IMG/VR virus record: IMGVR_UViG_3300011116_000325
Span: 1-41,797 of that record
DNA: 41,797 nucleotides
Origin: a virus
Reading direction: 5' to 3' (one strand)
In this document: positions 12,718-37,414 of the stretch, piece by piece
Layout of the letters: the number at the start of each line of letters is the position of its first letter
How positions within the stretch are numbered: the first letter of the stretch is position 1
Position numbers and translations under genes: made by a program
The notes under the pieces: model-generated
Told to the model about the DNA's origin: nothing
What the model saw: the letters and a program-made list of their open reading frames with translations, nothing else
Databases searched by the model: none

Positions 12718-13551
12718 ATGCGTTCACTACTACAAGTAGTCGGTGTGGAGTCACCTGCTGGTAAGCAATTACCAGAGGTGCTCCCTGCTCTTACCGCAAG
12801 TCAAGTTGCCTTCCGTCAGGCTCAACTGCATTTGATTGCAGGACAGCCAGGTGGCGGTAAGACACTGATTGCATTGTGGTACGCCATCGCCTCCAAAGTT
12901 CCAGCGTTATATATCTCAGCGGACTCTGATTCAAGAACAATAGCGACTCGTGCAGGCGCAATCATTATGGACAGAGAAGTGTCTGACGTTGAGAGAATCA
13001 TGGATACTGAAGCCAGTGTTCTTCTTGAAGATGCATTGGCTGAAGGTGCAGGACATGTTCGGTTTGCCTTCGACCCAGCGCCCTCGTTACAAGACATCGA
13101 GGAAGAAATCGAAGCGTGGATTGAACTGCACGGTGCTGCACCTGTGGCGGTGTATGTTGATAACTTAATGAACGTCGCTTCATCAAGCGACAACGAGTGG
13201 ACTGCATTGCGTGATGCAATGTCAGCGTTCCACTACATGGCTCGTGAATATGAAACAGCCTTCATCGTTCTTCACCATGTGTCGGAGAACGAGAAGATGT
13301 CTAAGCCAAACTACCCAGCGCCACGTAAAGCTCTGATGGGCAAGGTTGCAGCCCTACCAGAACTCGTCTTATCCGTGGCGCTGGATAGCGCAGCTAATGT
13401 TTATCGTGTGGCTGTCGTGAAGAATCGTCACGGTAAAGCTGACCCGAATGCTGAAGAGTACATAACGCTGGCAGCAGAAGCTAGCAAGATGACTCTGTAT
13501 AACTCATCGACAGAATTATTTAGAGCAAGGACGATGAGCCAATGGAAGTAA
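12718..13551 (+). CDS. RecA/DnaB-type P-loop ATPase
   Basis: 277 residues. Walker A GQPGGGKT at 42-49, Walker B VAVYVD at 143-148, and a sensor-like FIVLHHVSE near 182-190 place it in the RecA/DnaB/KaiC superfamily. There is no DnaB N-terminal primase-binding domain, and length fits phage RecA-like or short helicase ATPases. Given the neighbouring exonuclease, resolvase and split primase, it is either the recombinase or the replicative helicase; motifs alone do not decide. Overlaps the next gene by 10 bp. Confidence 0.85.
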   Translation: MRSLLQVVGVESPAGKQLPEVLPALTASQVAFRQAQLHLIAGQPGGGKTLIALWYAIASKVPALYISADSDSRTIATRAGAIIMDREVSDVERIMDTEASVLLEDALAEGAGHVRFAFDPAPSLQDIEEEIEAWIELHGAAPVAVYVDNLMNVASSSDNEWTALRDAMSAFHYMAREYETAFIVLHHVSENEKMSKPNYPAPRKALMGKVAALPELVLSVALDSAANVYRVAVVKNRHGKADPNAEEYITLAAEASKMTLYNSSTELFRARTMSQWK

Positions 13552-13970
13552 CTAAATCAAGTTTCGATTTAGATTTCTCATATGGTCGTGAAGGTGAGAA
13601 ACTAGTTGAACAACTTCTAACTAATGGTAAAACCGTTGAAGTAAAACGTGACCGTAAGTGGCATAAGACAAACAATGTTTACATTGAAGTTGAGTGCTGG
13701 TATCTTAAATCCCAATCTTGGGAACCATCTGGTTTATCAGTAACACAAGCTGATTACTGGGCATTCGTTCTAGAAGAAGGAATAATTATGGTTCCGACAG
13801 ATTATGTAAGATACGTAGTCAAGAACTGGGGTCATGAGATTACTTGTGAGATTCCCCCGAACCGAAGTAAAGGTTATTTGGTTACTATAGAAAACTTATT
13901 GTCCGCAATGAAGTTATTACGAAAGGGAAGTGTAGATGAAATTTCCAGACTTGACCAGGGGGTTGTGTAG
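13542..13970 (+). CDS. PD-(D/E)XK nuclease-like protein
   Basis: 142 residues. FSYGREGEKLVEQLL (conserved Gly and Glu in helix 1), then TVEVKRDRKW (E33-x-K35), then NNVYIEVEC and EPSGLSVTQADYWAFVL, the order of conserved elements in small PD-(D/E)XK nucleases. IIMVPTDYVRYVVKN follows. Probably acts on replication or recombination intermediates or host DNA. Overlaps the ATPase gene and the WhiB gene (35 bp). Confidence 0.75.
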   Translation: MEVTKSSFDLDFSYGREGEKLVEQLLTNGKTVEVKRDRKWHKTNNVYIEVECWYLKSQSWEPSGLSVTQADYWAFVLEEGIIMVPTDYVRYVVKNWGHEITCEIPPNRSKGYLVTIENLLSAMKLLRKGSVDEISRLDQGVV

Positions 13971-14202
13971 AGAGATTGGTATTGAGTTCTTCTTTCCAGA
14001 AGAAGGAGGAAGTGGTACTGATATATATACATACTCACGCAAGATATGTGGCAAGTGCGTGGTTAAGAATGAATGTCTGGAATGGGCTATAAGACATGAG
14101 GCTTATGGCATGTGGGGCGGGACAACCCCAATGGAGCGCAAGAAGATTAGGCGCAGTAGAAATATAATTATTCAAGAGATACTAGTAAAGGATTATGTAT
14201 GA
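13936..14202 (+). CDS. WhiB-family Fe-S transcription regulator
   Basis: 88 residues with the four cluster cysteines of Wbl proteins (Cys11, Cys38, Cys41, Cys47: GLCREIG and KICGKCVVKNEC), FFPEE near 19-23, and the signature turn GMWGG at 58-62 followed by a basic tail (ERKKIRRSR). Wbl proteins are confined to Actinobacteria and their phages, where phage copies can interfere with host WhiB/sigma control. The start at 13936 lies inside the preceding gene. Stop overlaps the next start (ATGA). Confidence 0.9.
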   Translation: MKFPDLTRGLCREIGIEFFFPEEGGSGTDIYTYSRKICGKCVVKNECLEWAIRHEAYGMWGGTTPMERKKIRRSRNIIIQEILVKDYV

Positions 14203-14348
14203 AAGCTTTTAATTCAGTAGAGATTAGAGTTGGCAAACTGTGGCTACATTTTGGATATAGCTTTAGTCGATTTGCAGTTGGGTTTTGTATTGATAGGTTC
14301 TCTGCGAACATAGACCTTGGACCATTCTGGATTTCGATTGAGTACTAA
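14199..14348 (+). CDS. Small hydrophobic/aromatic protein
   Basis: 49 residues, short of most ORF cut-offs but framed by ATGA and TAATG overlaps on both sides. Sequence is beta-like and aromatic: VEIRVGKLWLHFGYSFSRF and a terminal NIDLGPFWISIEY. LGPFWISI-type endings occur in many tiny phage proteins of unknown role. Not clearly membrane-spanning. Confidence 0.7.
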   Translation: MKAFNSVEIRVGKLWLHFGYSFSRFAVGFCIDRFSANIDLGPFWISIEY

Positions 14349-14701
14349 TGACAACACCATCCAAACGCAAGGGTTCGCAGTACGAACGTGACGTAGTTAA
14401 GTGGCTCATTAGTATGGGCTATCCGTGTGCTGAACGAGCTTATGGTGCTGGTCGTCATGATGACGTTGGCGATATTGATGGCATTGATGGTGTTGTTATA
14501 GAATGCAAGAATGAAAAACGCATCAACATCCCTGGTTATCTAAAAGAACTTGAGGATGAAATGATTCATGCGGATGCGGAAACAGGAGTTGTGCTAATAA
14601 AAAAGCGTGGCACATCTAATATCTCAGAGTCGTATGCAGTAATGCCTGCGGAACTCTGGGTGAATCTGCTAAAACAGGCAGGTTACAATGGACATCAGTG
14701 A
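14348..14701 (+). CDS. Hjc-like Holliday-junction resolvase
   Basis: 117 residues. RKGSQYERDVVKWLISMGY (Glu13), GAGRHDDVGDIDGI (Asp42) and GVVIECKNEKRINI (Glu52, Lys54) form the archaeal-Hjc-type PD-(D/E)XK active site with a basic N-terminus. It should resolve branched DNA before packaging, overlapping in role with endonuclease VII at 16938. Start overlaps the previous stop. Confidence 0.85.
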   Translation: MTTPSKRKGSQYERDVVKWLISMGYPCAERAYGAGRHDDVGDIDGIDGVVIECKNEKRINIPGYLKELEDEMIHADAETGVVLIKKRGTSNISESYAVMPAELWVNLLKQAGYNGHQ

Positions 14702-14739
14702 AGCTGTGACAGAGTTTCACAAAATGAAAAGAGGTAACT

Positions 14740-15120
14740 ATGCGGTTAGTGATAGTGACTATAGTTGGAATGATGCTGCCGATAGCAGCACCAGCCCAAG
14801 CATTATCGCCAGCACTTACATTCGAGAAGAAGTTGTCCGTAGTTACGGACAAAAAGGAACGAGTGGAGTTGGCGCTAACGCAAGTCACAACCAACAAACG
14901 CGAGGCTCAGTGTGCAATTCAGATTGCATACAAGGAGAGCCGATACAACGTGGACTCCTACAACAAATCGAGTGGAGCACGTGGAGTATGGCAATTACTC
15001 TGGGCAAAACCAGAGTGGTCATTACTCAAACAAACAGAGGAAGCACACAAGTATGTGCTACATCGATACGACACTTGGTGCGAAGCGTACAGGTTTCACC
15101 AGGAAAGGAATTGGTATTAG
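14740..15120 (+). CDS. Secreted transglycosylase-like protein
   Basis: 126 residues. Signal peptide at about 1-21 (RLVIVTIVGMMLPIAAPAQA, Ala-x-Ala cut site). The mature part has IAYKESRYN (catalytic-type Glu66) and SSGARGVWQLLWA (79-88), the Glu and GxxQ elements of SLT/lysozyme-like lytic transglycosylases. It is shorter than usual and lacks the later conserved Asn/Tyr region, so it may be minimal. It sits in the replication module, not with the holins, so it could act early or modify the wall. Ribosome site agaggt. Confidence 0.75.
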   Translation: MRLVIVTIVGMMLPIAAPAQALSPALTFEKKLSVVTDKKERVELALTQVTTNKREAQCAIQIAYKESRYNVDSYNKSSGARGVWQLLWAKPEWSLLKQTEEAHKYVLHRYDTWCEAYRFHQERNWY

Positions 15121-15123
15121 GTC

Positions 15124-15453
15124 ATGAACCAACCCGAATTTCTTGAAGCAGTCTTTCGTCATTATGGATTAGACCTACCGTTAGGTGGGGACAAATCCAT
15201 CTTTTGTCCTGTACATGATGACTCGCATAAGTCTGCTTCGGTTAATTCGGAGAAGGGTGTCTGGGTATGTTATGCATGCAGCGGACGTGGCGCTGGTATA
15301 CAGATTGTCATGGCTCGTGAAAACTTAACATACTCAGACGCTCGCAAATGGGCAGAGAAGAACATAGGTAAGGAGGCGAAGAGCGCAGCTCCGACTCGTG
15401 GACGCAAGTCCAGCAGTCGTTGGACTCCACCTAGATTGAGGTCAGTTAGATGA
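15124..15453 (+). CDS. Primase, zinc-finger domain only (split primase)
   Basis: 109 residues with the CHC2 pattern CPVH (28-31) and CYAC (49-52), plus RGAGIQIVMARENLTYSDA as in DnaG N-terminal domains. It ends in a basic tail (PTRGRKSSSRWTPPRLRSVR). The TOPRIM part is a separate gene at 15980; the intervening gene is an Ntn-hydrolase. It presumably reads primer start sites for the catalytic subunit. ATGA overlap with the next gene. Confidence 0.85.
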   Translation: MNQPEFLEAVFRHYGLDLPLGGDKSIFCPVHDDSHKSASVNSEKGVWVCYACSGRGAGIQIVMARENLTYSDARKWAEKNIGKEAKSAAPTRGRKSSSRWTPPRLRSVR

Positions 15454-15983
15454 CAACAATCATTGGTATTCAAGAACCAGACGGCTGCTTGATTGCAGCC
15501 GATAGTAGAACTACAACTGAGAAGGGTCGCCCTTACTCACATCCAATCGTAACTAAGATTACTAAACGCGGTAAGTTTCTAATCGCTGGTGCTGGCACAA
15601 CTCAGCCGTGTGACATTGTCCAACACATATGGAAACCACCAGCTATACCAGCTAATACAAAAGACATCTATCACTTTATGATTACAACTGTCATCCCAAG
15701 CATGCGTGAATGCTTACGTGATAACGGATTCGTTCACGATGAGAAGACAGATGAATATGAATTTTTATTTTTAATGGCTGTGAACGGAACCATCTATGAG
15801 GTAGATGATACGTACTCAGTCTTCCTACGCGATGATGGCATCTATGGCTTAGGTTCTGGGTCTTCCTACGCCATAGGTGCTATCGCATCTGGTGCAAACT
15901 GGAAGAAAGCGCTGCAGATTGCAGCAAAAAATGATGTGTATACTGCTCCTCCTTTCGTAGTGCATAGGCAGGAAAAGAAATGA
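15450..15983 (+). CDS. HslV/proteasome-beta-like Ntn-hydrolase
   Basis: 177 residues. The N-terminus MTTIIGI would expose a catalytic Thr after Met removal. Numbering from that Thr gives Asp17 in LIAADSRT and Lys35 in IVTKITK, matching Asp17/Lys33 of HslV; FLIAGAGTTQP and YGLGSGSSYAIGAI match the Gly-rich strands. The C-terminus (ALQIAAKNDVYTAPPF) corresponds to the last helix and strand. No unfoldase gene is seen, so it would act alone or with a host ATPase. It overlaps the primase genes by 4 bp on both sides. Confidence 0.85.
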   Translation: MTTIIGIQEPDGCLIAADSRTTTEKGRPYSHPIVTKITKRGKFLIAGAGTTQPCDIVQHIWKPPAIPANTKDIYHFMITTVIPSMRECLRDNGFVHDEKTDEYEFLFLMAVNGTIYEVDDTYSVFLRDDGIYGLGSGSSYAIGAIASGANWKKALQIAAKNDVYTAPPFVVHRQEKK

Positions 15984-16627
15984 AACCAAATCAAAAGCTT
16001 ATAGACCTTTGGACTAAGGCAGCCAACACATATCACGAAACCCTTGCTGGTTCACCAGCCGAGGCATACCTAGAGAAGCGTGGCATCCTTGACGGAGCCG
16101 AACGATTCAAGCTTGGGTATGTGGTTGACCCAGCACCTGGGCATGAGGATAGATTGAAGCATCACTTGTCTATCCCATACATAACCGAGTCTGGAGTTGT
16201 TGGGTTTAAGTTCCGCCGTATAGATGACGGTGACCCAAAGTATATGATTCCTACTGGTCAGAAGCACCACCTATATAACGTCAGTGCTATCCTTCATGCA
16301 GTCCATGAAGTACTGATTGTGGAAGGAGAGATTGATGCGATATCTGCTACCCTTGCTGGTCATCCTGCTGTCGCTGTGGCTGGTGTTAATGCTTGGAAGC
16401 CTCACTTTAGCCGTTGTTTTGACGGCATTGGTCGTGTGGTTATAGCCACCGATAATGATGTTAAAGAAGATGGGTCTAACCCAGGGCAGGAATTAGCCCG
16501 CCGTTTATCTGATGCAATACCTCAAGCCATCCGCGTGTCGCTACCGCCTGATAGCGACATCAACAGTATAATTGTCAGCCAAGGAGCTCAAGCGTTAACT
16601 AAGTTGATTAACGCACTGGATGAATAG
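15980..16627 (+). CDS. Primase, TOPRIM catalytic domain (split primase)
   Basis: 215 residues. N-terminal DnaG-type AEAYLEKRGI and FKLGYVVDP, a substrate region with GVVGFKFRRIDD, then TOPRIM motifs VLIVEGEIDAISA (Glu115) and VVIATDNDVKEDG (Asp158, Asp160). The C-terminus has VSLPPDSDINSII. It has no zinc finger of its own; that is encoded at 15124. Makes RNA primers for replication by a host polymerase, as no DNA polymerase gene is present. Confidence 0.88.
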   Translation: MKPNQKLIDLWTKAANTYHETLAGSPAEAYLEKRGILDGAERFKLGYVVDPAPGHEDRLKHHLSIPYITESGVVGFKFRRIDDGDPKYMIPTGQKHHLYNVSAILHAVHEVLIVEGEIDAISATLAGHPAVAVAGVNAWKPHFSRCFDGIGRVVIATDNDVKEDGSNPGQELARRLSDAIPQAIRVSLPPDSDINSIIVSQGAQALTKLINALDE

Positions 16628-26548: not shown

Positions 26549-28438
26549 TTGGAAAGAAATCTAACCCCCGAAGAAGCCAGGAAAGAACTAATCAACTTGG
26601 TGCGCCAAGGGCGCACTATTGCCGATGCCCTCAAGGTTATTGGTCGTTCTCGTTCTTGGTATGACACCCAGAGGCGCGAAGCTGAAGGCTTCGCTGCCTA
26701 TATAGATAACGCTCGGTTAAGAACCTCCGACCTCGCCGACGAAGCTCGGTCTGGTCTATCTGACTTTGCGGAGTTTTCTGAGAAATACCTGGGAGCCAAA
26801 GTTTGGGACCACATGCTTAACGTGGTCGATATGTTGGAAGGTAAAGAACCTCGTTGGTTACATCCAGCGATGACTTACGAAAAAGGGTCGGCGGGTCTAT
26901 CCCGCCTCTTGGTAAATGTTCCACCAAACCATGCCAAGACTATGACCATCACGATTAACTACGTTACCTACCGCGTAGTCAAAAATCCCAACATCAACGT
27001 GATTGTTATTTCCAAAACCCAAGAGCAGGCTAAGAAGTTTCTTTATGCTATCAAGCAACGCCTGACTCATCCTCGGTATGCAGACCTACAAGCTGCCTTT
27101 GGTCCTACCGATGGTTACAAAGCTACCGCCGACATGTGGTCGGCTAACAAAGTTTATCTGGGCGCGGATGTCCGCGAATCAGATGCCAAAGACCCAACGA
27201 TTGAAGCAATCGGTATGGGCGGTCAAGTCTACGGCGCTCGCGCCGACTTAATCGTACTTGACGACGTGGTCACTCTCTCTAACGCGGGAGAGTGGGCTAA
27301 GCAACAAGAATGGATTCGACAAGAAGTTGCCTCTCGTCTACCACCAGGCGGGGGTCAGCTTCTTGTTGTCGGAACTCGCGTATCTGCAACCGACTTATAT
27401 AAAGAACTTCGCAACACTCAACATTACACGGACGGAATCGTACCGTGGTCATATTTGTCCATGCCTGCCGTATTAGAATACGCAGACGACCCGAAGGATT
27501 GGAAAACCCTTTGGGGCAAGTCAGAGCAACCGCTTACTGAGGATGATACCCCAGATGAGAATGGTTACTTTGACCGATGGACTGGACCGCGTCTTACTGC
27601 GGTCCGCAATGAGGCTGGTCCTTCCAAATGGTCTTTGGTTTACCAGAACCTCGATATCGCAGAGAATGCAATCTTCGACCCGATGTGCGTTAGAGGCGCA
27701 GTCAACGGAATGAGAAAATCGGGTGCGTTAGTTGCAGGCGCTGCGGGTCATCCTGAAAATGCACAGAACTTCTATCGCATTATTGGTATAGACCCAGCCA
27801 TGTCTGGTGACACGGCAGCAGTTGCTTACGCAGTCGACCGCAGAACACACAAGCGCTATGTCATGGACGTTCACGTCATGAGCAGCCCCACACCTGCAGC
27901 GATTCGGTCTTTGATTCGAGAATGGACAGATGCCTACAAGCCTCATACTGTCATCGTTGAATCCAACGCATTTCAGCTTTTCTTGACCCAAGACGAGGAG
28001 ATTAGAAACTTCTTGTCTACCCGCGGTATTAACTACCGCCCACACTACACAGGTAATAATAAACAAGACCCAGAGTTTGGTGTAGCTTCTCTGGCTCCGT
28101 TGTTCGGAACCGTTATTAAACGTGACGGTAACAATAACAACTTAAAGCATGCTGGCGATAACATGATTGAGTTACCAGATGCTTCACGTAATGAACATAT
28201 CAAAAAGTTAATAGAACAATTGGTTGTTTGGCAACCAGGAGTTCAAGGCAAGAGATTAAAGATGGACGCTGTAATGGCGCTCTGGTTTTGTGAAATCGTA
28301 GCCCGCGATGTTTTATTAACTTCAGCAAATGTACCAAACTTTTTGAAAAACGAATTTACACCTCAGAAGCAAATTGAAGATAGGTACATTGTAAACCTAG
28401 ATGATTTAGCTGCTGCACAGCGAATAGCGAGATTGTGA
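26549..28438 (+). CDS. terL: Terminase large subunit with fused N-terminal HTH
   Basis: 629 residues, TTG start directly after ggagaag. Residues about 6-50 form a helix-turn-helix with IADALKVIGRSRSWYDTQRR, as in terminase small subunits. The ATPase shows VPPNHAKTM (124-132, Walker A-like), DLIVLDDV (233-240, Walker B) and VVGTRVS (273-279, coupling motif). The RNase-H-type nuclease has IIGIDPAMSGD (Asp415), VIVESNAF (Glu471) and MDAVMALWF near the end. Packages DNA with the portal. No separate small subunit is seen. Stop overlaps the portal start region. Confidence 0.93.
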   Translation: MERNLTPEEARKELINLVRQGRTIADALKVIGRSRSWYDTQRREAEGFAAYIDNARLRTSDLADEARSGLSDFAEFSEKYLGAKVWDHMLNVVDMLEGKEPRWLHPAMTYEKGSAGLSRLLVNVPPNHAKTMTITINYVTYRVVKNPNINVIVISKTQEQAKKFLYAIKQRLTHPRYADLQAAFGPTDGYKATADMWSANKVYLGADVRESDAKDPTIEAIGMGGQVYGARADLIVLDDVVTLSNAGEWAKQQEWIRQEVASRLPPGGGQLLVVGTRVSATDLYKELRNTQHYTDGIVPWSYLSMPAVLEYADDPKDWKTLWGKSEQPLTEDDTPDENGYFDRWTGPRLTAVRNEAGPSKWSLVYQNLDIAENAIFDPMCVRGAVNGMRKSGALVAGAAGHPENAQNFYRIIGIDPAMSGDTAAVAYAVDRRTHKRYVMDVHVMSSPTPAAIRSLIREWTDAYKPHTVIVESNAFQLFLTQDEEIRNFLSTRGINYRPHYTGNNKQDPEFGVASLAPLFGTVIKRDGNNNNLKHAGDNMIELPDASRNEHIKKLIEQLVVWQPGVQGKRLKMDAVMALWFCEIVARDVLLTSANVPNFLKNEFTPQKQIEDRYIVNLDDLAAAQRIARL

Positions 28439-28440
28439 TA

Positions 28441-30204
28441 ATGAAAGAACTTGTACACGCATATGAGCAATTAAAAGCTCGTAATGCTGAGCGCGATAAG
28501 CGCATGCGCGAAGTCGCATTGGTCCGTTCAGGTAACGCCGACCAAGTGTTTCGCGGTTTGTTCCCAGAGGGAACATGGTCTAGACCTATCATCGCCAACC
28601 TTATTGACGTGGTTGCTCGTGATGTTTCTGAGCAGGCAGGTGTACTACCTACCATAACGGCTGCTGGAGATTCATCCCTTGATGATTCACAGCGTACCAA
28701 GGCTGATAAGAGAACTAAGATTGCAAATTATTATGTTGCTTCATCTCGTCTTGGAACAGAGCTACTGCGTGGCGCAGACCAGTTAGGAACTTATGGCTTC
28801 TGTATATTCAGAGTCGAACCTAACTTCAAGGAAAATAGACCGCATATCCATGTAGAAAACTCTATGGGTGCGTATTACGACATGGACAGGTTTGGGGAAG
28901 TATCTGTCTATTGCCGTTCGTATTATCGTAAGGCTGGCGATTTAGCAGCCAAGTTCCCAGAACTAGCAGACAAGATTTTGCAGACAACTGCGTTTGGTCG
29001 TACAGACAGTAATGAACTACTTGAGGTGGTTCGTTGGACTGACAAGAATCGCACCGTAATGTTTATTCCAAGTCGTGGAGGTGCAGTACTTGCCGAAACA
29101 TCAAATAAACTCGGTCGAGTCCCAGTTGCGATTGCTCAGCGTCCTTCGCTTGACGGCGAAGTCCGAGGCTCGTTCGACGACGTACTACCAGTATATGCAG
29201 CCAAGGCGCGTCTTGCTCTTCTTACTATGGAAGCTGTTCAAAAATCTGTTGAAGCTCCTCTTGCTTTGCCTACTGACGTTACTCAGCTATCCGTTGGTCC
29301 TGATTCAGTTATACGTTCTAACTCCCCTGAGAAGATTCGTCGTATCAATCTGGATGTACCTCAGTTCGCTTTTGCGGAGAACAATGTTCTAGCAGATGAA
29401 ATGAAACTAGGAACTCGCTTTCCTCAAGCACGTGCAGGACAAGCAGAAGGTTCTATTGTTACTGGTCAAGGTGTCAAGGCACTTATGGCTGGGTTCGATT
29501 CACAAATCAAAGTTATTCAATCAATCCTTGGCGAAGCAATTGGCGAAGCTATCTCTATCGCGTTTGCTACTGATGAGGCATACTTCCCAACGCTATCTCG
29601 TGAAGTATCTGCAACAGCCAATGGCGTTCCATACAAATTAAAATACAAACCATCAATCGATATCAACGGCAATTATGGCGTAACAGTTGAATACGGATTG
29701 ATGGCAGGACTTGACCCTAACCGAGCACTGGTATGGGGTCTGCAAGCACGTGGCGATAAACTCATTTCACGAGGAATGCTACGTCGTAATTTACCAATTT
29801 CGCTCAACGCTGGAGAAGAAGAGCGGGCAATTGACATCGAAGAGATGCGTGATTCATTGAAAGCATCTATTTCACAACTTGCTGCAGCGATTCCACAAAT
29901 GGTTTCGCAAGGTCAAGACCCAATGTCACTTGTTGAAAAGATGGCAACAGTTATCGATGAACGTAAGAAAGGCACACCACTTGAAGAAGCGGTAGCCAAA
30001 GCGTTCAAGCCAGAACCAGCACCACAAGCAACACAAGCACCACAAGCGCCAGAAATGGCGCAACCAGAACAGCCAATGGGCATAGGTGGCGAAATGCCAC
30101 AGATGCCACAAGGCAGACCAGCAATGCAAGAGTTGTTAGCAGGTCTAACTGGTTCAGGCAATCCAGTACTCGCAGGTCGAGTAACTCGACAAATACCAGC
30201 ATAA
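28441..30204 (+). CDS. Portal protein
   Basis: 587 residues from ATG 28441; a GTG at 28435 would add two. It follows terminase directly. The N-terminal helices (VHAYEQLKARNAERDKRM), LLRGADQLGTYGFCIFRVEP, a stem-like KLGTRFPQARAGQAEGSIVT with GQGVKALMAGFDSQI, and the helical crown region are typical of portal subunits. The C-terminus is Pro/Gln/Met-rich and low complexity. Forms the dodecameric DNA entry ring. Confidence 0.85.
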   Translation: MKELVHAYEQLKARNAERDKRMREVALVRSGNADQVFRGLFPEGTWSRPIIANLIDVVARDVSEQAGVLPTITAAGDSSLDDSQRTKADKRTKIANYYVASSRLGTELLRGADQLGTYGFCIFRVEPNFKENRPHIHVENSMGAYYDMDRFGEVSVYCRSYYRKAGDLAAKFPELADKILQTTAFGRTDSNELLEVVRWTDKNRTVMFIPSRGGAVLAETSNKLGRVPVAIAQRPSLDGEVRGSFDDVLPVYAAKARLALLTMEAVQKSVEAPLALPTDVTQLSVGPDSVIRSNSPEKIRRINLDVPQFAFAENNVLADEMKLGTRFPQARAGQAEGSIVTGQGVKALMAGFDSQIKVIQSILGEAIGEAISIAFATDEAYFPTLSREVSATANGVPYKLKYKPSIDINGNYGVTVEYGLMAGLDPNRALVWGLQARGDKLISRGMLRRNLPISLNAGEEERAIDIEEMRDSLKASISQLAAAIPQMVSQGQDPMSLVEKMATVIDERKKGTPLEEAVAKAFKPEPAPQATQAPQAPEMAQPEQPMGIGGEMPQMPQGRPAMQELLAGLTGSGNPVLAGRVTRQIPA

Positions 30205-30371: not shown

Positions 30372-31880
30372 ATGGCGAAGAAACCATACAAATATCGCCA
30401 AGCCAGAAAAGACGCTAAGACTGCAGCAAAGAGAGCTTTTCCAGGAAAAGTAAAAGCTGTACGCAAAGACATCACAGGCAAAATTACTGCTGAAGATAGA
30501 CTAGCTCTTAAGGACATGGCTGATACTGCCAAGAAAGAACTTGGCAAGAAGGCTTATCTAAGCAGAGCTGAATACGATGCTATGCAACAGAAGGAACTTG
30601 ATAAGTTCCGTCAGTCTATGGCAGATGAATTTGGCGAATACGCTGGCAAGAAAGCAGGAGGCGACGAAGCACCTGCCAAGAAAGCCCCAGCAAAGAAAGC
30701 TGCTGTCAAAAAAGCTGCTGCTGCTATTGAAAAGAAAGCACCAGTAAAAAAGGCTGCAGTTAAAAAGGCTGCTGTCAAACCAACTAAGACTTTTGGTGAA
30801 ATATCCAAGTCAGTTACTGCAGCAAAAGAGCCAGTAAAGAAGGCTGCGCCTTCAAAGACCATGACTCGTGCAGAGAAGTCTGCTGCTAATAAGGCTGCAT
30901 GGAAGAACATGACTCCCGCAGAACGCAAGAACTGGTCAGCTACTAAGCCAGGCGCTAAAGGCGAAGTTCTTATTCAAGGTAAGAAATACGATGTTGCCAG
31001 CGGTGCTGCCGATAAGAAAATGAATGAACTTGCAAAAACGCAGACACCAAAAAATCCTTCTGCTACAAAGCGTCCAACACTTGCAGATTTGAAACGTAAT
31101 GAAGCCAAAGGTCTTGAAGAAGCTAAAAAGCGCGTAGCAGCTAAAGCTGCTGCAGCTAAGCCACGTACAAAAATTACTGTAGATTCAAAAGCACCATCTA
31201 CTGCTAAACCAACTGCTGGTCAAGCAGCTTTGAAAGACATGGAAGCAAAAGCTAAAGCTAAGGTTGCAGCTAAAAAAGCTACACCAAAGTTTAGACGAAT
31301 CAAAGGTGCAGGAAAAGCAGGTATTGTTGGAGCAGCCGTTGGTGAAGTAGTTAGCTTAGCTAAAGGTTCAACCAAAAAAGACTTTAATGAAATCAATCGT
31401 CTTGAGCAAAAGCTTGCTGACATTACTGGCAAGGGTAAAAGTAAGGTAACTGCAGGTCGCCAAGGAGCGCAACAGCAATTATCTCAACTTGCATCACTAG
31501 CATCAATGGGTATTGTAGGCAAGACTCGTCGTCAACGTATGGACGAACTTAATGCTCTTATTGCCAAGGCTGAAAAGAAGAACGCACCTAAAGAACTTCG
31601 CTATGGCAAGGATGGCTCATCACTTGTACCAGGAACTGCAGCATATAAGGCTGGTTCTAAGACAAGACCAACAGTAACTTCTACTGGCGGTGGTTCAACA
31701 ACTAAAGTTGATAGCCGATATACCGTGAAGAAGGGCGATACCTTGTCAGGTATTGCAAAGACTGCAGGATTATCTTTAGCAGAACTTCGTGCAGCAAACC
31801 CTGACATTATGAAGAAAAAGAAGTACAAGCAAGGCAACATGATTTGGTCAGGAACAAAGGTCAATATTCCAAAGAAGTAG
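30372..31880 (+). CDS. Histone-H1-like Lys/Ala-rich protein with C-terminal LysM
   Basis: 502 residues. Very basic; about 93-140 consists of PAKKA, AVKKA and APVKKA repeats like histone H1 tails or AlgP. A low-complexity Lys/Ala region continues to about 300. The last about 55 residues form a LysM domain: YTVKKGDTLSGIAKTAGLSL, ELRAANPDI, MIWSGTKVNIPKK. DNA-binding tail plus wall-binding module in a late gene suggests an internal protein ejected with DNA. Ribosome site aaggat. Confidence 0.8.
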   Translation: MAKKPYKYRQARKDAKTAAKRAFPGKVKAVRKDITGKITAEDRLALKDMADTAKKELGKKAYLSRAEYDAMQQKELDKFRQSMADEFGEYAGKKAGGDEAPAKKAPAKKAAVKKAAAAIEKKAPVKKAAVKKAAVKPTKTFGEISKSVTAAKEPVKKAAPSKTMTRAEKSAANKAAWKNMTPAERKNWSATKPGAKGEVLIQGKKYDVASGAADKKMNELAKTQTPKNPSATKRPTLADLKRNEAKGLEEAKKRVAAKAAAAKPRTKITVDSKAPSTAKPTAGQAALKDMEAKAKAKVAAKKATPKFRRIKGAGKAGIVGAAVGEVVSLAKGSTKKDFNEINRLEQKLADITGKGKSKVTAGRQGAQQQLSQLASLASMGIVGKTRRQRMDELNALIAKAEKKNAPKELRYGKDGSSLVPGTAAYKAGSKTRPTVTSTGGGSTTKVDSRYTVKKGDTLSGIAKTAGLSLAELRAANPDIMKKKKYKQGNMIWSGTKVNIPKK

Positions 31881-31888
31881 GTAAATAA

Positions 31889-32305
31889 ATGTCAATGATG
31901 CAACCTTCGGGTCCAGGTAAGTTCGCTAAGCGAACCGACCGCCAGGGCGCAAAACAACTTCCTAATGCTGCCTATGGCGAGCAAAGAGATTTTCAGGCTC
32001 AACAGGCTGCTGCACCAATGGCTAAAACACCTACACCGCAAATGCCACGTATTAATCCGATGGCAGGCGTAGTACCTTTGACAGCGCCCACCCAGCGTCC
32101 AGATGAACCTGTGACTGCTGGTGTGGACGTTGGTCCTGGTCCTGGTAGAGAAATGCTAGGACTAAAAAGTCCAATCGATAATCAATTAAAAGATTTATCA
32201 AAGTTGGCTAAATACATGCCATTGATGGCACAGTTTGCGGATTCTCCAGAATCTTCTGGAACTATGAAAGCTTTCGTTAAGTATTTACGGAGTCAAGCAG
32301 AATGA
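31889..32305 (+). CDS. Pro/Met-rich virion-module protein
   Basis: 138 residues, disordered N-terminal 100 with many Pro, Gln and Met (AQQAAAPMAKTPTPQMPRIN), then a helical end (LKDLSKLAKYMPLMAQFADS). Stop overlaps the next start (ATGA). Unknown role; position suggests an internal or assembly protein. Confidence 0.7.
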   Translation: MSMMQPSGPGKFAKRTDRQGAKQLPNAAYGEQRDFQAQQAAAPMAKTPTPQMPRINPMAGVVPLTAPTQRPDEPVTAGVDVGPGPGREMLGLKSPIDNQLKDLSKLAKYMPLMAQFADSPESSGTMKAFVKYLRSQAE

Positions 32306-32478
32306 AGATACTCAAGAAGTTCGAAGAGAACCTTGAATACCTTGGATTTGAAATGGCTCCAGTTGCTTGGGATTTAGCCAAGTTCCCCTTTGAATCCGAC
32401 GATGACCGAATTTCAGTATTAGAGGAACTAACGGCTAAGGAGGCTGCACCTAATGTCCCTAACAGAATGGTGGAGTGA
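32302..32478 (+). CDS. Small acidic protein
   Basis: 58 residues: MKILKKFEENLEYLGFEMAP, VAWDLAKFPFESDDDRISVL. Coupled by ATGA to the preceding gene, and its last 26 bp overlap the giant gene. No family recognised. Confidence 0.65.
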   Translation: MKILKKFEENLEYLGFEMAPVAWDLAKFPFESDDDRISVLEELTAKEAAPNVPNRMVE

Positions 32479-35400
32479 CCCATCTGTAGCCAGTGACCCT
32501 ACTAAAGAACCAAAACTTTCCAAGGTAGATAAGTTCAAAAAAGATACAACTAAAGTAGGAAAAGCAGAACAAGCAATTGTCCCTAAAGTAATGGGAGCAA
32601 TTGAAGCTGGTTCAAAAAAACCAATTCTTGGCAGGATTATTAATCCAGCTATGGCAGCACTTAGTTTTGTTGGCGAAAAAATTGTACAGCCAGTAACTCA
32701 AACTGTTTCTGCTGCTCTACTTACACCTCAAGCTATGGCTAAAGGCAAGGGTGGCATTACTGAAAGTTATCGTTTCTCAAAGAAACAAGCCGAAAAGATT
32801 TCTATGGGACAGGCAGCAGCTAGCGCTGTTGGTAAGATTACATCTCCTGTTCTTGGTGATGTAACTAATGCTACATTCCTTGACAAAGACTTTGATGTAT
32901 TTGATGAACGCCAACGTGATAAAGCATTCCGTGATGAATGGGCTGGAATTTTAGCCTCTGGTGTTACTGACTTAGCACTTGCTGCTCTTGGCAGCAAAGG
33001 TGCTGGCTTTGCCGTACGCGGTGCTGCAAAGAAAGTTGTAGGTCCAAAACGTCTTGCTACCACAGACGACATGGATGTATTTAGAAGCGAACTTGATGAG
33101 ATTGTTGCACAGAAGGCTTTGCCTGTAGAACAACAGACTAAGACTGGTCTATCCGTACTTGTAGATGACGCAGTCAATGAAACAGATTTAACTAAGCTTG
33201 CATCAAACCCACTTGTATCCGAAACATCTAATCCTTATAGAACAGCAACAATCCTATCTAGATTAGATAACCACCAGGATGTAGCAGATTATCTGCTTGC
33301 TGAACGTGGTGATACTGCTGCATTCCAACGATTCTTTGAACGTAATCCACTTGCAGCAGACCATCTTGATAACTATGGAATTACTGCTACAACACCGATT
33401 GATAATTTTGCAAACATCGGATTAGATGCACTAGACCCAGCTCTTACATCTAGATATCAAAAGATTATTGATGCTGTTAAAGTAGAAGACCCTAACTTTG
33501 CTCGCGCTTTAGATGACTTCATGGAAAAGGCGCAGATGGGTGTTATCGAAAGCTACCGCCCAGGACGCTATGCAGCGCTAGAGCAAATTGGTTTAGCCAA
33601 GAAGAAGATACAATCACAGGCTTTATACGGCGACCTTAAGATGTTTGGTCAAGATGCCGACGGTGGTTGGAAAACTCAGGTTTACCAAACAGGTGTCTAC
33701 GATAGAGCCGTACGTGTTATTGCATGGACTGGCTCAGGTCGTCCACAAGGGTACATTAATATTTCTAACCCACGTAAGTTTGAAGCAGCCAACGATTTAT
33801 TATCTGACCTAAACCGTCTTCAGTTCCTTAAGGGAGTAGAAGGCGCTCAGTACAAGCGTCGCATGGTCGAGATGTTCCTTGATGCACAAAGCGATACACA
33901 ACGTGCTATTGCACTTGGTCGCATTGAAGAAAGCGTCATGGGTCGTCTTGCCAAGCATTACGGCATTACAGATATGCAAGATATTGCCAGCACTAAAGAT
34001 GCTGTCAACCAGATTAAAAACTGGCATATCCGTATGAACCAAAGTCGTGATAGCATTAAAGAGTATGCTGTTAAGAATGGTTTTGTTCCAGACGAAAACG
34101 GCGGAATTAACGTACAAAACTTCTTGTCTGTATCTAATGAAGCACAGAATCTTCCAATGCTTGACTTCCGCAGACTTGAAACTGAAGTTATCTTCAACGC
34201 ACGTCGCGTTGCAGGCAAAGGTGCAAAGGTTACCCAAGGTCAGTTCTATGGCGCTGTAGCGTCTAGAACCGCTATGAATGTTGGTCAGTTCCTTGACTTA
34301 GCCAACATGGTATTCAGCAACTTGAACCTACTTCGTCTTGCATACATACCAAAAAACTCAATGGTAGACCCATTTGCTCGTGCAAGCATGGCTCTTGAGT
34401 CAATGGAACTTATTAAGAATGCAATCCCTGGCGTAGATAATGTTATCTACAATACTGGTCTTCTAAAAGAATCTGCTAAAAAATGGAAACCAGGCAGCCC
34501 AGCTGCCAATGCTCGTAAGCAAGCTAAGTCTGCACAGTTTCGTGTAGAAAAGTACCGAGCAGACCTAGAACCTAAGATTACAGACCACGCAAAAGCCGAA
34601 GCTCTTTATGATGACTTAGACAAGTCATTGACAAAACTTACTGCAGCTCGTGACAAAGCCAAAGCTAAGGCAATGAAAAGCAATGATGTCAATGTCCAAA
34701 ATAAGTATTATGAACTTGAAGATAAGGTAACAGAGTTACAGTCTAAGGTTGATGACGCATTTGATGAGATGAGTCGCCTTGCTGATTATATTAACGGCAC
34801 TGCAAAACTTATCCAACGTGAACGTAAAGACTGGGCAGAGTTTGCCAATGCTCAAGGAGATTTGAAACAAAAGAAACTTCTTGGTCAAGATGCTGAAGTT
34901 ATTGAAGTTAACGGTCAGACATACACACTTCAAGGATTAGCTGACCCTAACGTCCGTGGTGCTAGCGCATACATGTCAGAAATTGACACCGCTACAAACT
35001 TTTATGCAGCATCAATGCAGTCAGAAATCTCAAGAAGACTTCGTGCAGACGGTGCTCGCTTTGTAAAGATTCCTCGCAAGAATCGTGAAGAGTATATGAA
35101 TGCGTTGGCACATATTGCTAACCGTCAAATTCGTAACGAGCTTGATTTGCCAGTCGGATGGATGATGAAGGGCGAAAAGTCCAACGCTGAAATAGTACAA
35201 TGGTTATACAGTCCAGCTGGTAAAGAATACAGACTTCGTATTCAAGACCGTTTTGGTGATGATATGGAAGCTTGGGCAGCGCAGACAAGAGAAAAACTCT
35301 ATGCAATGTATCCAGACCCAGACCTTCGTAAAATTATTACAGAACGTCCAGTGACTTACCAAGAAGTAGATGCAATGCTTTATGGCAGAACAGACCTACT

Positions 35401-37414
35401 TAAAGAGATTGATGGACCAAGCCTTAAGCTTTCTGACCTAACTGGCGCTGAGCAAATCCTTGCTCGCGTAGGTGGAGCAACCAACGCAGCATGGAAAGTT
35501 CTTTCACTTGCTGAAACAAGATTGGTTCGTAACCCACTATTCTTGTCTTACGTCCGTGACGAAATGAAAACGCTGATTAATGCAGCACAACGGTCTGGTA
35601 TTGATGTATCAGAAGCCGTAGTAAACAATGAGATTCGTCAGGTTGCATACCGTAAGGCACTAGGTCGAGTTGAAGAAACGCTTTACTCATCACGTCGTCT
35701 TACCAATGGTATGTACACAGCACGTTATGCAATGAGCTTCCCCTTGGCTTTCTTCAACTCCCAAGCAGTTGCGCTTCGCCTATTGGCTCGCAACCCAATG
35801 AATGCCTACTGGTACAACAGTATCCAACAAGCATTTGACAAGTATGAAGCTTATGAGGACCAAGATGGAAACACTTACTCCTCAATCAAAGATGTTCCAG
35901 CTGGAGTATCAGTATCTGTTAAGTACCCACTTCCATATGGAGATAAGTTACCAAGTTGGGTTAAGACAGCACTTAAGCCATATACAGATGCTCGTGGCGG
36001 TGGAATTAAATTCAACCCTAAGCAAATGGAATTCATGGTTGCTGACCCATCTATCTCTTGGTTTGGCACAGCAACAATATCCGAAATCATTGATAACGGA
36101 TTTAGTGTTGGTCCATGGAAGCTTTACGGTGAGCAAGTAGCAACAGCGCTACGTGAAACACTTGGCGACGATGTTTATGAATCAAGCATTCTATATGGAG
36201 GATATCCAGTAGAAGGCAAGAACCTTGCCGAGAAGGTAAAGAACACAATGGTTCCAGCTTATGCTCAATCATTGATTGACTCAGGCAAGTTACCATACCC
36301 AATCCGTACAGCGTTTTCACTTATCGGACTTGAAAAGAGTGAACGATTTACCGACGAGGTTTACGCTCAATGGCGTAAAGGATTCTCTGAGTGGGTAGCA
36401 AACGGTCGTGTTGGTCAACCACCAACTATGGAATCTGCTGCTAAAGCAGCTGGCAATATGGCGTTTATCCGTGCTGTTGTTCAGTTCAACGCACCTATCT
36501 CAGCAACATTTGACCCAGTAACTCGTGCTGCCACCTCTTATTACGCAGACTTGGTAGAGATGGCTAATGGCGATTATGACATTGCACAGAAAGTGATGAT
36601 TGACGAGTGGGGAATGGATTCCTTAGCGCTTGTCGGGTCTAACCAAAAGAATATTGCAGGCGTAGCTGCAACACTAAATGATATTAAGGTTCTTCGTAAT
36701 AGCACAAAGTTGCTAGAAGAACTAGGTAATACCAATACAAAGTATGCTGGAATGTTGTCATCTGGTTATGGTGATATTGCAGGTACTGGTAGTGGACCAA
36801 ATGATTATTCGACAGAAGTAGCTTCTATCTACAAGAAGATGAAGTTTGCTGGAGGATTTAATAATCCTATTACTCAGAAGAAAACCGAAGACGAGTTAAA
36901 GAAGTCAGTTCAAGCTCGTGTTGGTTGGGCTGAGTATCAGAAAGCTGTTGATTGGCGCAACGCCATGATGAAGCAATATGGAATTGCCTCAACCTATGAA
37001 TCCAGGTATGAATACTCTGGCATCAAGCGTGTCTTCGATGACATGGTAGATGACATTGAAAAGGACTACAAGGGTTGGGTAGAGCAACGCGACGAAGAAC
37101 GCAAAGACTACTGGAATGGAACCATTGCAGCGGTTGAAACTATCTCCAACAATCTTGACTGGAGAACATACGCGTACTCGACTGGCAATACCAAGTGGGA
37201 AGAAATTGCTTTCTGGGCAGGTAAGGCTCGTAACTTTAAGAATGAGTATGACCGACCAAACAATAGTGATGAAAGGAAGTTGATGCTCAAACAACAGTTT
37301 GCTCAATTTCATTATGACTTCCTACAAACAGCATCTGATGAATTTGATGCATTTGCCACAAGATGGTTAAACAATATGCCAGAACTAGATAATGAATTCG
37401 TGGTGACAAAGTGA
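32453..37414 (+). CDS. Giant internal virion (ejection) protein
   Basis: 1653 residues, about 12% of the genome. N-terminal 150 residues include a hydrophobic, amphipathic stretch (AMAALSFVGEKIVQPVTQ). A long coiled coil lies at about 690-790 (LDKSLTKLTAARDKAKAKAM, YELEDKVTELQSKVDDAFDE). A conserved-looking middle is MYTARYAMSFPLAFFNSQAV. The C-terminus is helical and charged. Size, late position and absence of a tail tube/tape-measure pair fit a gp16-like inner-core protein. No lytic catalytic motif found. Ribosome site aaggagg. Confidence 0.65.
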   Translation: MSLTEWWSDPSVASDPTKEPKLSKVDKFKKDTTKVGKAEQAIVPKVMGAIEAGSKKPILGRIINPAMAALSFVGEKIVQPVTQTVSAALLTPQAMAKGKGGITESYRFSKKQAEKISMGQAAASAVGKITSPVLGDVTNATFLDKDFDVFDERQRDKAFRDEWAGILASGVTDLALAALGSKGAGFAVRGAAKKVVGPKRLATTDDMDVFRSELDEIVAQKALPVEQQTKTGLSVLVDDAVNETDLTKLASNPLVSETSNPYRTATILSRLDNHQDVADYLLAERGDTAAFQRFFERNPLAADHLDNYGITATTPIDNFANIGLDALDPALTSRYQKIIDAVKVEDPNFARALDDFMEKAQMGVIESYRPGRYAALEQIGLAKKKIQSQALYGDLKMFGQDADGGWKTQVYQTGVYDRAVRVIAWTGSGRPQGYINISNPRKFEAANDLLSDLNRLQFLKGVEGAQYKRRMVEMFLDAQSDTQRAIALGRIEESVMGRLAKHYGITDMQDIASTKDAVNQIKNWHIRMNQSRDSIKEYAVKNGFVPDENGGINVQNFLSVSNEAQNLPMLDFRRLETEVIFNARRVAGKGAKVTQGQFYGAVASRTAMNVGQFLDLANMVFSNLNLLRLAYIPKNSMVDPFARASMALESMELIKNAIPGVDNVIYNTGLLKESAKKWKPGSPAANARKQAKSAQFRVEKYRADLEPKITDHAKAEALYDDLDKSLTKLTAARDKAKAKAMKSNDVNVQNKYYELEDKVTELQSKVDDAFDEMSRLADYINGTAKLIQRERKDWAEFANAQGDLKQKKLLGQDAEVIEVNGQTYTLQGLADPNVRGASAYMSEIDTATNFYAASMQSEISRRLRADGARFVKIPRKNREEYMNALAHIANRQIRNELDLPVGWMMKGEKSNAEIVQWLYSPAGKEYRLRIQDRFGDDMEAWAAQTREKLYAMYPDPDLRKIITERPVTYQEVDAMLYGRTDLLKEIDGPSLKLSDLTGAEQILARVGGATNAAWKVLSLAETRLVRNPLFLSYVRDEMKTLINAAQRSGIDVSEAVVNNEIRQVAYRKALGRVEETLYSSRRLTNGMYTARYAMSFPLAFFNSQAVALRLLARNPMNAYWYNSIQQAFDKYEAYEDQDGNTYSSIKDVPAGVSVSVKYPLPYGDKLPSWVKTALKPYTDARGGGIKFNPKQMEFMVADPSISWFGTATISEIIDNGFSVGPWKLYGEQVATALRETLGDDVYESSILYGGYPVEGKNLAEKVKNTMVPAYAQSLIDSGKLPYPIRTAFSLIGLEKSERFTDEVYAQWRKGFSEWVANGRVGQPPTMESAAKAAGNMAFIRAVVQFNAPISATFDPVTRAATSYYADLVEMANGDYDIAQKVMIDEWGMDSLALVGSNQKNIAGVAATLNDIKVLRNSTKLLEELGNTNTKYAGMLSSGYGDIAGTGSGPNDYSTEVASIYKKMKFAGGFNNPITQKKTEDELKKSVQARVGWAEYQKAVDWRNAMMKQYGIASTYESRYEYSGIKRVFDDMVDDIEKDYKGWVEQRDEERKDYWNGTIAAVETISNNLDWRTYAYSTGNTKWEEIAFWAGKARNFKNEYDRPNNSDERKLMLKQQFAQFHYDFLQTASDEFDAFATRWLNNMPELDNEFVVTK

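Follow-up and report, generated by a model that had tools for sequence, protein, structure and literature searches.

Why does a gene for a proteasome-like peptidase lie between the two genes of a phage primase, and does that position say what the peptidase does? The question is raised by a viral DNA of 41,797 nucleotides (IMG/VR record IMGVR_UViG_3300011116_000325, positions 1 to 41,797), which was analyzed over its whole length and is called the window here.

A hydrolase gene between two primase genes

The locus consists of three consecutive open reading frames on the + strand. The first (15124..15453) encodes the CHC2 zinc-finger half of a DnaG-type primase, 109 aa in length (PF01807, 1.9e-10; PHROG 360, 1.4e-22), the second (15450..15983) a proteasome-like Ntn hydrolase of the HslV/BPH type, 177 aa in length with a predicted N-terminal Thr in its mature form, and the third (15980..16627) the Toprim half of the primase, 215 aa in length (PF13362, 1.2e-9; PHROG 849, 4.2e-33). 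ATGA stop/start overlaps at 15450..15453 and 15980..15983 connect the hydrolase gene to both neighbors, bearing out the arrangement given in a preliminary description of this DNA, in which an Ntn hydrolase gene was placed, with 4-bp coupling, between separate CHC2 and Toprim genes. The same cluster contains + strand genes for a DnaB-like helicase (12718..13551; PHROG 243, 1e-73) and a RusA-like resolvase (14348..14701; PHROG 244, 4e-25). A 152-aa + strand reading frame (14688-15146) overlaps the transglycosylase gene in another frame, and similar reading frames form a family found in 67 loci; it may be coding or a by-product of the other frame.

The window also carries genes for an MCP (Phage_capsid_3), a portal, TerL and a WhiB-like regulator (13936..14202, + strand; PF02467, 4.9e-15), the last being a marker of an actinobacterial host. 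The best annotated relatives of TerL belong to the ct2KA10 records and to Streptomyces phages. Two public, unannotated records labelled 'Caudovirales sp. ct2KA10' (OX376640.1 and OX376641.1) appear to be the Planktophila phages LanE43AprE7 (E7) and F5, which were isolated on 'Ca. Planktophila' LanE-43 (PMC10202952), and a homologue of the hydrolase is present in both of these isolates. Based on the relatives of TerL, the WhiB gene, and the isolation of E7 and F5 on LanE-43, the host of the window phage is likely to be actinobacterial, and probably a member of the Nanopelagicales.

The hydrolase has the fold and the catalytic residues of Ntn threonine peptidases

The phage family PHROG 1040, annotated as 'peptidase HslV family', matched residues 1-176, nearly the whole protein, at 3.6e-26; Pfam Proteasome gave only E = 0.005, which is under Pfam's cut-off. 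When the PDB was searched with the single sequence, BPH (the beta-proteobacteria proteasome homologue) was found at 0.0044, and a profile of 20 homologues matched BPH at 1.7e-10 and HslV at 4.5e-7. An AF2 model, built from an alignment of 40 phage homologues, reached a pLDDT of 92.7 and a pTM of 0.88, with helices at residues 51-60, 73-91, 138-146 and 151-161 around a beta core. Its closest fold in the PDB was BPH (5ovt; VIA Z 18.6, rmsd 2.7, 163 residues aligned, 23% identity), followed by HslV (Z of about 17), 20S beta (about 17) and Anbu (16.7). The model therefore has the alpha-beta-beta-alpha Ntn fold (Z 16-18.6 to these four), and the comparison with HslV that had been proposed supports the expected class of structure.

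The structure alignment starts with residue 2 of the model, a Thr, on residue 1 of the BPH chain, so that as far as the model shows, the four layers are present and the Thr is N-terminal once Met is gone. Methionine preceding threonine is expected to be removed, no propeptide was apparent in the sequence or the model, and maturation would require Met removal only. The predicted nucleophile, Thr1 in mature numbering, is encoded at 15453..15455, Asp17 at 15501..15503, and the catalytic Lys, which aligns with the Lys of BPH and is equivalent to proteasome Lys33, at 15555..15557 (all + strand). The triad thus stands as first described, except that the Lys is at mature position 35 rather than 33. 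All 40 divergent phage homologues share Thr1, Asp17, Lys35 and the Gly47-region (oxyanion) glycines, and a Ser or Thr near the position of proteasome Ser169, assigned by alignment and by eye, is mostly retained. The equivalent of Asp166 varies among the 40, being Asn in one subclade and other residues elsewhere, and since it is not conserved, the efficiency of the hydrolase may differ.

Within the window clade, median dN/dS was about 0.041 for the hydrolase, compared to 0.098 for CHC2 and 0.064 for Toprim, over a set of about 48 mutually non-independent comparisons, each made against the window. The hydrolase gene is under strong purifying selection.

An unfoldase was not found, and a host partner is not favored

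No unfoldase was found among the reading frames of the window, in agreement with the preliminary description; the ones longer than about 300 aa were assigned otherwise or fell into uncharacterized phage families, and strict Walker A motifs occur only in the helicase and in one 154-aa reading frame. The failure to find a phage unfoldase in the window and the HslV-like fold would both fit a proteolytic core that a host AAA+ unfoldase (Clp or the proteasomal ATPase) recruits, or one that mixes with host PrcB; use of the host proteasomal ATPase or competition with host proteasome subunits had been suggested at the outset. However, the closest structures are BPH and HslV, and TIGR03690, the model for bacterial 20S beta, gave no match to the window hydrolase at E<=1 (the ct2KA10 homologue alone gave a weak match, 0.0067). 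Proteasomal ATPases dock on alpha rings, and the phage showed no sign of an alpha subunit. In addition, Table 1 of PMC8665760 has no mark for HslV in the Actinobacteria. Taking both sides together, we consider dependence on a host unfoldase or on PrcB to be quite unlikely.

The NCBIfam HslV model TIGR03692 scored the hydrolase at 18.1 bits, where the cut-off is 157.75, and these NCBIfam scores rule out the protein as PrcB or as HslV proper. PADLOC gave no match, and identity as a defense-system protein was set aside. Two scans of genome contigs for cellular relatives returned none in one case and, in the other, a single 29% match in a gammaproteobacterial MAG.

A different activity was also considered, in which the protein is a specific processing enzyme or a connectase-like protein ligase with one phage or host substrate. 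Connectase demonstrates that a ligase is possible for the same fold (PMC8665760), and the strong conservation of the hydrolase would be in keeping with such a role, but the two-helix S3/S4 insertion that is typical of connectase (PMC8665760) is not seen, the model having no helix before residue 51. This specialized role seems improbable to us.

The primase is split in relatives without an intervening hydrolase

The preliminary description regarded CHC2 and Toprim as normally one protein, a view that is not upheld by the relatives. The two are split, with no hydrolase gene between them, in ct2KA10/E7, G003, G004, G021, G034 and mycobacteriophage Leogania; among phages in which they stay separate, the hydrolase was not found in G034, and is located elsewhere in ct2KA10, G003, L052, L053 and L120. 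In ct2KA10, L052, L053, L062, L120, G003 and G004, the regions homologous to CHC2 and to Toprim lie in different frames and overlap, again with the hydrolase elsewhere. Of 1,455 phage records whose Toprim is related, 25 matches were listed, and most of these had two primase features; two-gene primases, adjacent or overlapping, are widespread in actinophages. Split primases in the relatives and in Leogania rule out the hydrolase as the cause of the split.

In L052, L053, L120, G003 (L206) and ct2KA10 (L201:34482-35307), homology was detected in both frames of the overlapping CHC2 and Toprim reading frames over about 100 nt, and it is possible, judging from these sequences, that a programmed frameshift joins the two products. 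Frameshifting over a short overlap cannot join CHC2 and Toprim in the window clade, where the two, if functional, must work in trans.

The most direct comparison is with G034, which trees of portal and MCP place as the sister of the window clade. Here the site is empty, reading CHC2...PPRLRKD-TAA-GGA-ATG-Toprim, with both ends homologous to those of the window. The hydrolase was not found in this 41.2-kb contig, which may be incomplete, using the A2 profile (the 40-homologue alignment), PHROG 1040 or the E7 protein, nor was it found in G035; both contigs retain related capsid and portal genes. The hydrolase gene may have been gained in the window clade rather than lost in G034.

The position of the hydrolase gene changes among relatives

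To place the locus in a wider setting, gene contexts were compared across 186 usable contigs and, after clustering at 90% identity, 34 clusters, and at least five were distinguished. The hydrolase lay between CHC2 and Toprim in 76 contigs (6 clusters), after an endolysin gene in 40 (1), after the portal gene in 23 (9), after Toprim in 15 (5), after the helicase gene in 8 (2), and in other contexts in 24 (11); the loci were collected via the hydrolase, and these numbers are therefore not frequencies, and they are approximate because the labels derive from single-linkage gene clusters, in which RusA appears to be pooled with CHC2, and DUF1599 with Toprim. Key gene orders were confirmed by phmmer or profile searches, among them portal-hydrolase-phrog_8200 in ct2KA10/E7, G001, G003 and G004, helicase-hydrolase in G008 and G009, and Toprim-hydrolase in G021. 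On the tree, the context label required 11 changes, compared to 19.6 in shuffles, which indicates that contexts are inherited, yet have changed repeatedly. The survey that had been proposed for the primase-hydrolase-primase order thus gave a divided answer, since the order is kept in the 76 contigs, but the hydrolase is elsewhere in other related phages. Conservation of the order in these contigs and the low dN/dS of the hydrolase argue that the arrangement is not due to chance.

Several loci differed in copy number or in their junctions. Two hydrolase copies were seen in L160, L162, L182, L184-L186, G017 and G018, adjacent to each other in some contigs of the endolysin type and widely separated in two larger phages. 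In G030 (82,688 bases), the hydrolase and Toprim genes each occur twice, with about 42 kb between copies; the contig corresponds to about two genome lengths and is a concatemer or a misassembly. In L086 (6534-6740) and other loci of the L085-L091 group, a small 68-aa reading frame lies between the hydrolase and Toprim genes, and this junction may have taken a second insert.

The conserved order also bears on whether the hydrolase is a functional partner of the primase, cleaving or regulating CHC2 or Toprim. Its retention in the 6 clusters and the ATGA overlaps on both sides of the gene in the window are consistent with such a partnership. On the other hand, the hydrolase is far from the primase in many relatives, and the empty site of G034 has the same conserved residues at the end of CHC2 and the start of Toprim, making a primase partner very improbable. 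The changes in position and the empty site suggest that the location of the gene says little about primase function.

Another recurrent location is in the head module. Near-complete contigs share a backbone of TerL, portal, a slot, phrog_8200, a giant protein, two LysM proteins and MCP. The hydrolase gene follows the portal gene in sister phages; in the window, the portal gene (28435..30204; PHROG 104, 8.5e-32) and the gene for the phrog_8200 protein (31889..32305; PHROG 8200, 1.6e-42), the right-hand neighbor of the hydrolase in the portal-type arrangement, flank a LysM protein gene (30372..31880; PF01476, 1.2e-8; all + strand) in the slot where ct2KA10/E7 and other phages have the hydrolase. 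A LysM protein also fills this slot in G011, G033 and G034. Further into the virion module of the window (32453-37414), a 1653-aa protein of the uncharacterized family PHROG 10618 has LysM proteins on either side.

The slot next to the portal is a frequent place of head maturation proteases, and the portal-adjacent order in 9 of the 34 clusters, including the divergent ct2KA10/E7, would agree with an assembly-stage enzyme for processing capsid proteins or internal proteins of the virion, with the portal/phrog_8200 slot as its original place. However, many relatives have the hydrolase among replication genes or elsewhere, and it was not found in G034 and G035 despite their related capsid and portal genes. 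Homologues are also present among small hypothetical genes of Microbacterium phage LeeroyJenkins, of DSL-LC01 and of Arthrobacter phage Pitbull, and LeeroyJenkins has a separate annotated capsid maturation protease alongside. A role in head maturation is, in our assessment, unlikely.

A probable accessory peptidase acting in trans

A peptidase that acts in trans and independently of the primase best accounts for the shifts in gene position, the empty site, the conservation of the triad, and the neighbors found in other actinophages. The reading we prefer, which we hold with confidence close to evenly balanced, is that the protein is a probably active, accessory Ntn threonine peptidase of the compact, HslV/BPH-like group I kind. 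When sampled by MCP rather than by the hydrolase itself, the gene was present in 9 of 9 contigs of at least 40 kb with a close MCP, so that it may be more than accessory within the clade.

For such a trans-acting peptidase, we propose that in the window clade the gene was placed between the CHC2 stop and the Toprim start, at a time when these genes were already separate, in what would be an early replication operon. Transcription together with the replication genes, and translational coupling to them, would then be probable. In sister phages, the place of the gene beside the portal gene points to expression late in infection and not early. The protein would probably self-assemble into a BPH- or HslV-like ring and, with no unfoldase dedicated to it, this ring may cleave peptides or unfolded proteins, probably independently of ATP. 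Its targets would be reached in trans, with host proteins being remodelled or cleared, or host defenses countered, and would not include the primase.

A broader and more tentative possibility is that these phages produce an unfoldase-free, proteasome-like particle that degrades host or defense proteins during actinophage infection, encoded with the replication genes in one branch and in the head module in another. If true, this would be the first time that a member of the superfamily is given a defined viral role. The literature searched contained no functional study of phage proteasome homologues and no reported function for them. A large freshwater actinophage branch keeps the peptidase under strong selection, in different modules, and offers a natural relative with an empty site. 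Homologues exist in cultivated phages, and what the peptidase cleaves and what it does can therefore be tested directly; these phages include Planktophila phages E7 and F5, Microbacterium phages and, as more distant cases, E. coli phages such as phAPEC8.

Comparison with known systems

The protein is of a kind already known, both as PHROG 1040 and as group I of Fuchs et al. It resembles the PHROG 1040 phage peptidases in its profile match and as a single phage gene, although the window branch forms a separate lineage of freshwater actinophages, and homologues in phage records are at most 37% identical. BPH, the top match in both the PDB profile search and the fold comparison, is of cellular origin, carries a long acidic pore loop and has no known dedicated unfoldase (PMC8665760). 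HslV is alike in fold, size and triad, but its partner HslU was not found among the reading frames of the window, and the hydrolase scores far under the HslV cut-off. Phages also carry PPH and AAH, two further proteasome homologues of group I (Fuchs et al., 2021; PMC8665760). PPH has about 140 residues and lacks helix H2 (PMC8665760), whereas the window protein has 177 residues and its model appears to have a helix at the H2 position (73-91, assigned by the order of elements), which sets it apart from PPH. Fuchs et al. (2021; PMC8665760) did not find AAH in any phage specific to Actinobacteria, and reported nothing in the genomic context of the new homologues that would suggest a function. The primase has its counterpart in mycobacteriophage Leogania, in which gp60 and gp59 are likewise separate CHC2 and Toprim genes, but these overlap each other directly, whereas in the window the hydrolase gene lies between them. 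As far as we have searched, what is new is the large freshwater actinophage branch, the shifting contexts of its hydrolase gene, and the comparison with an empty site.
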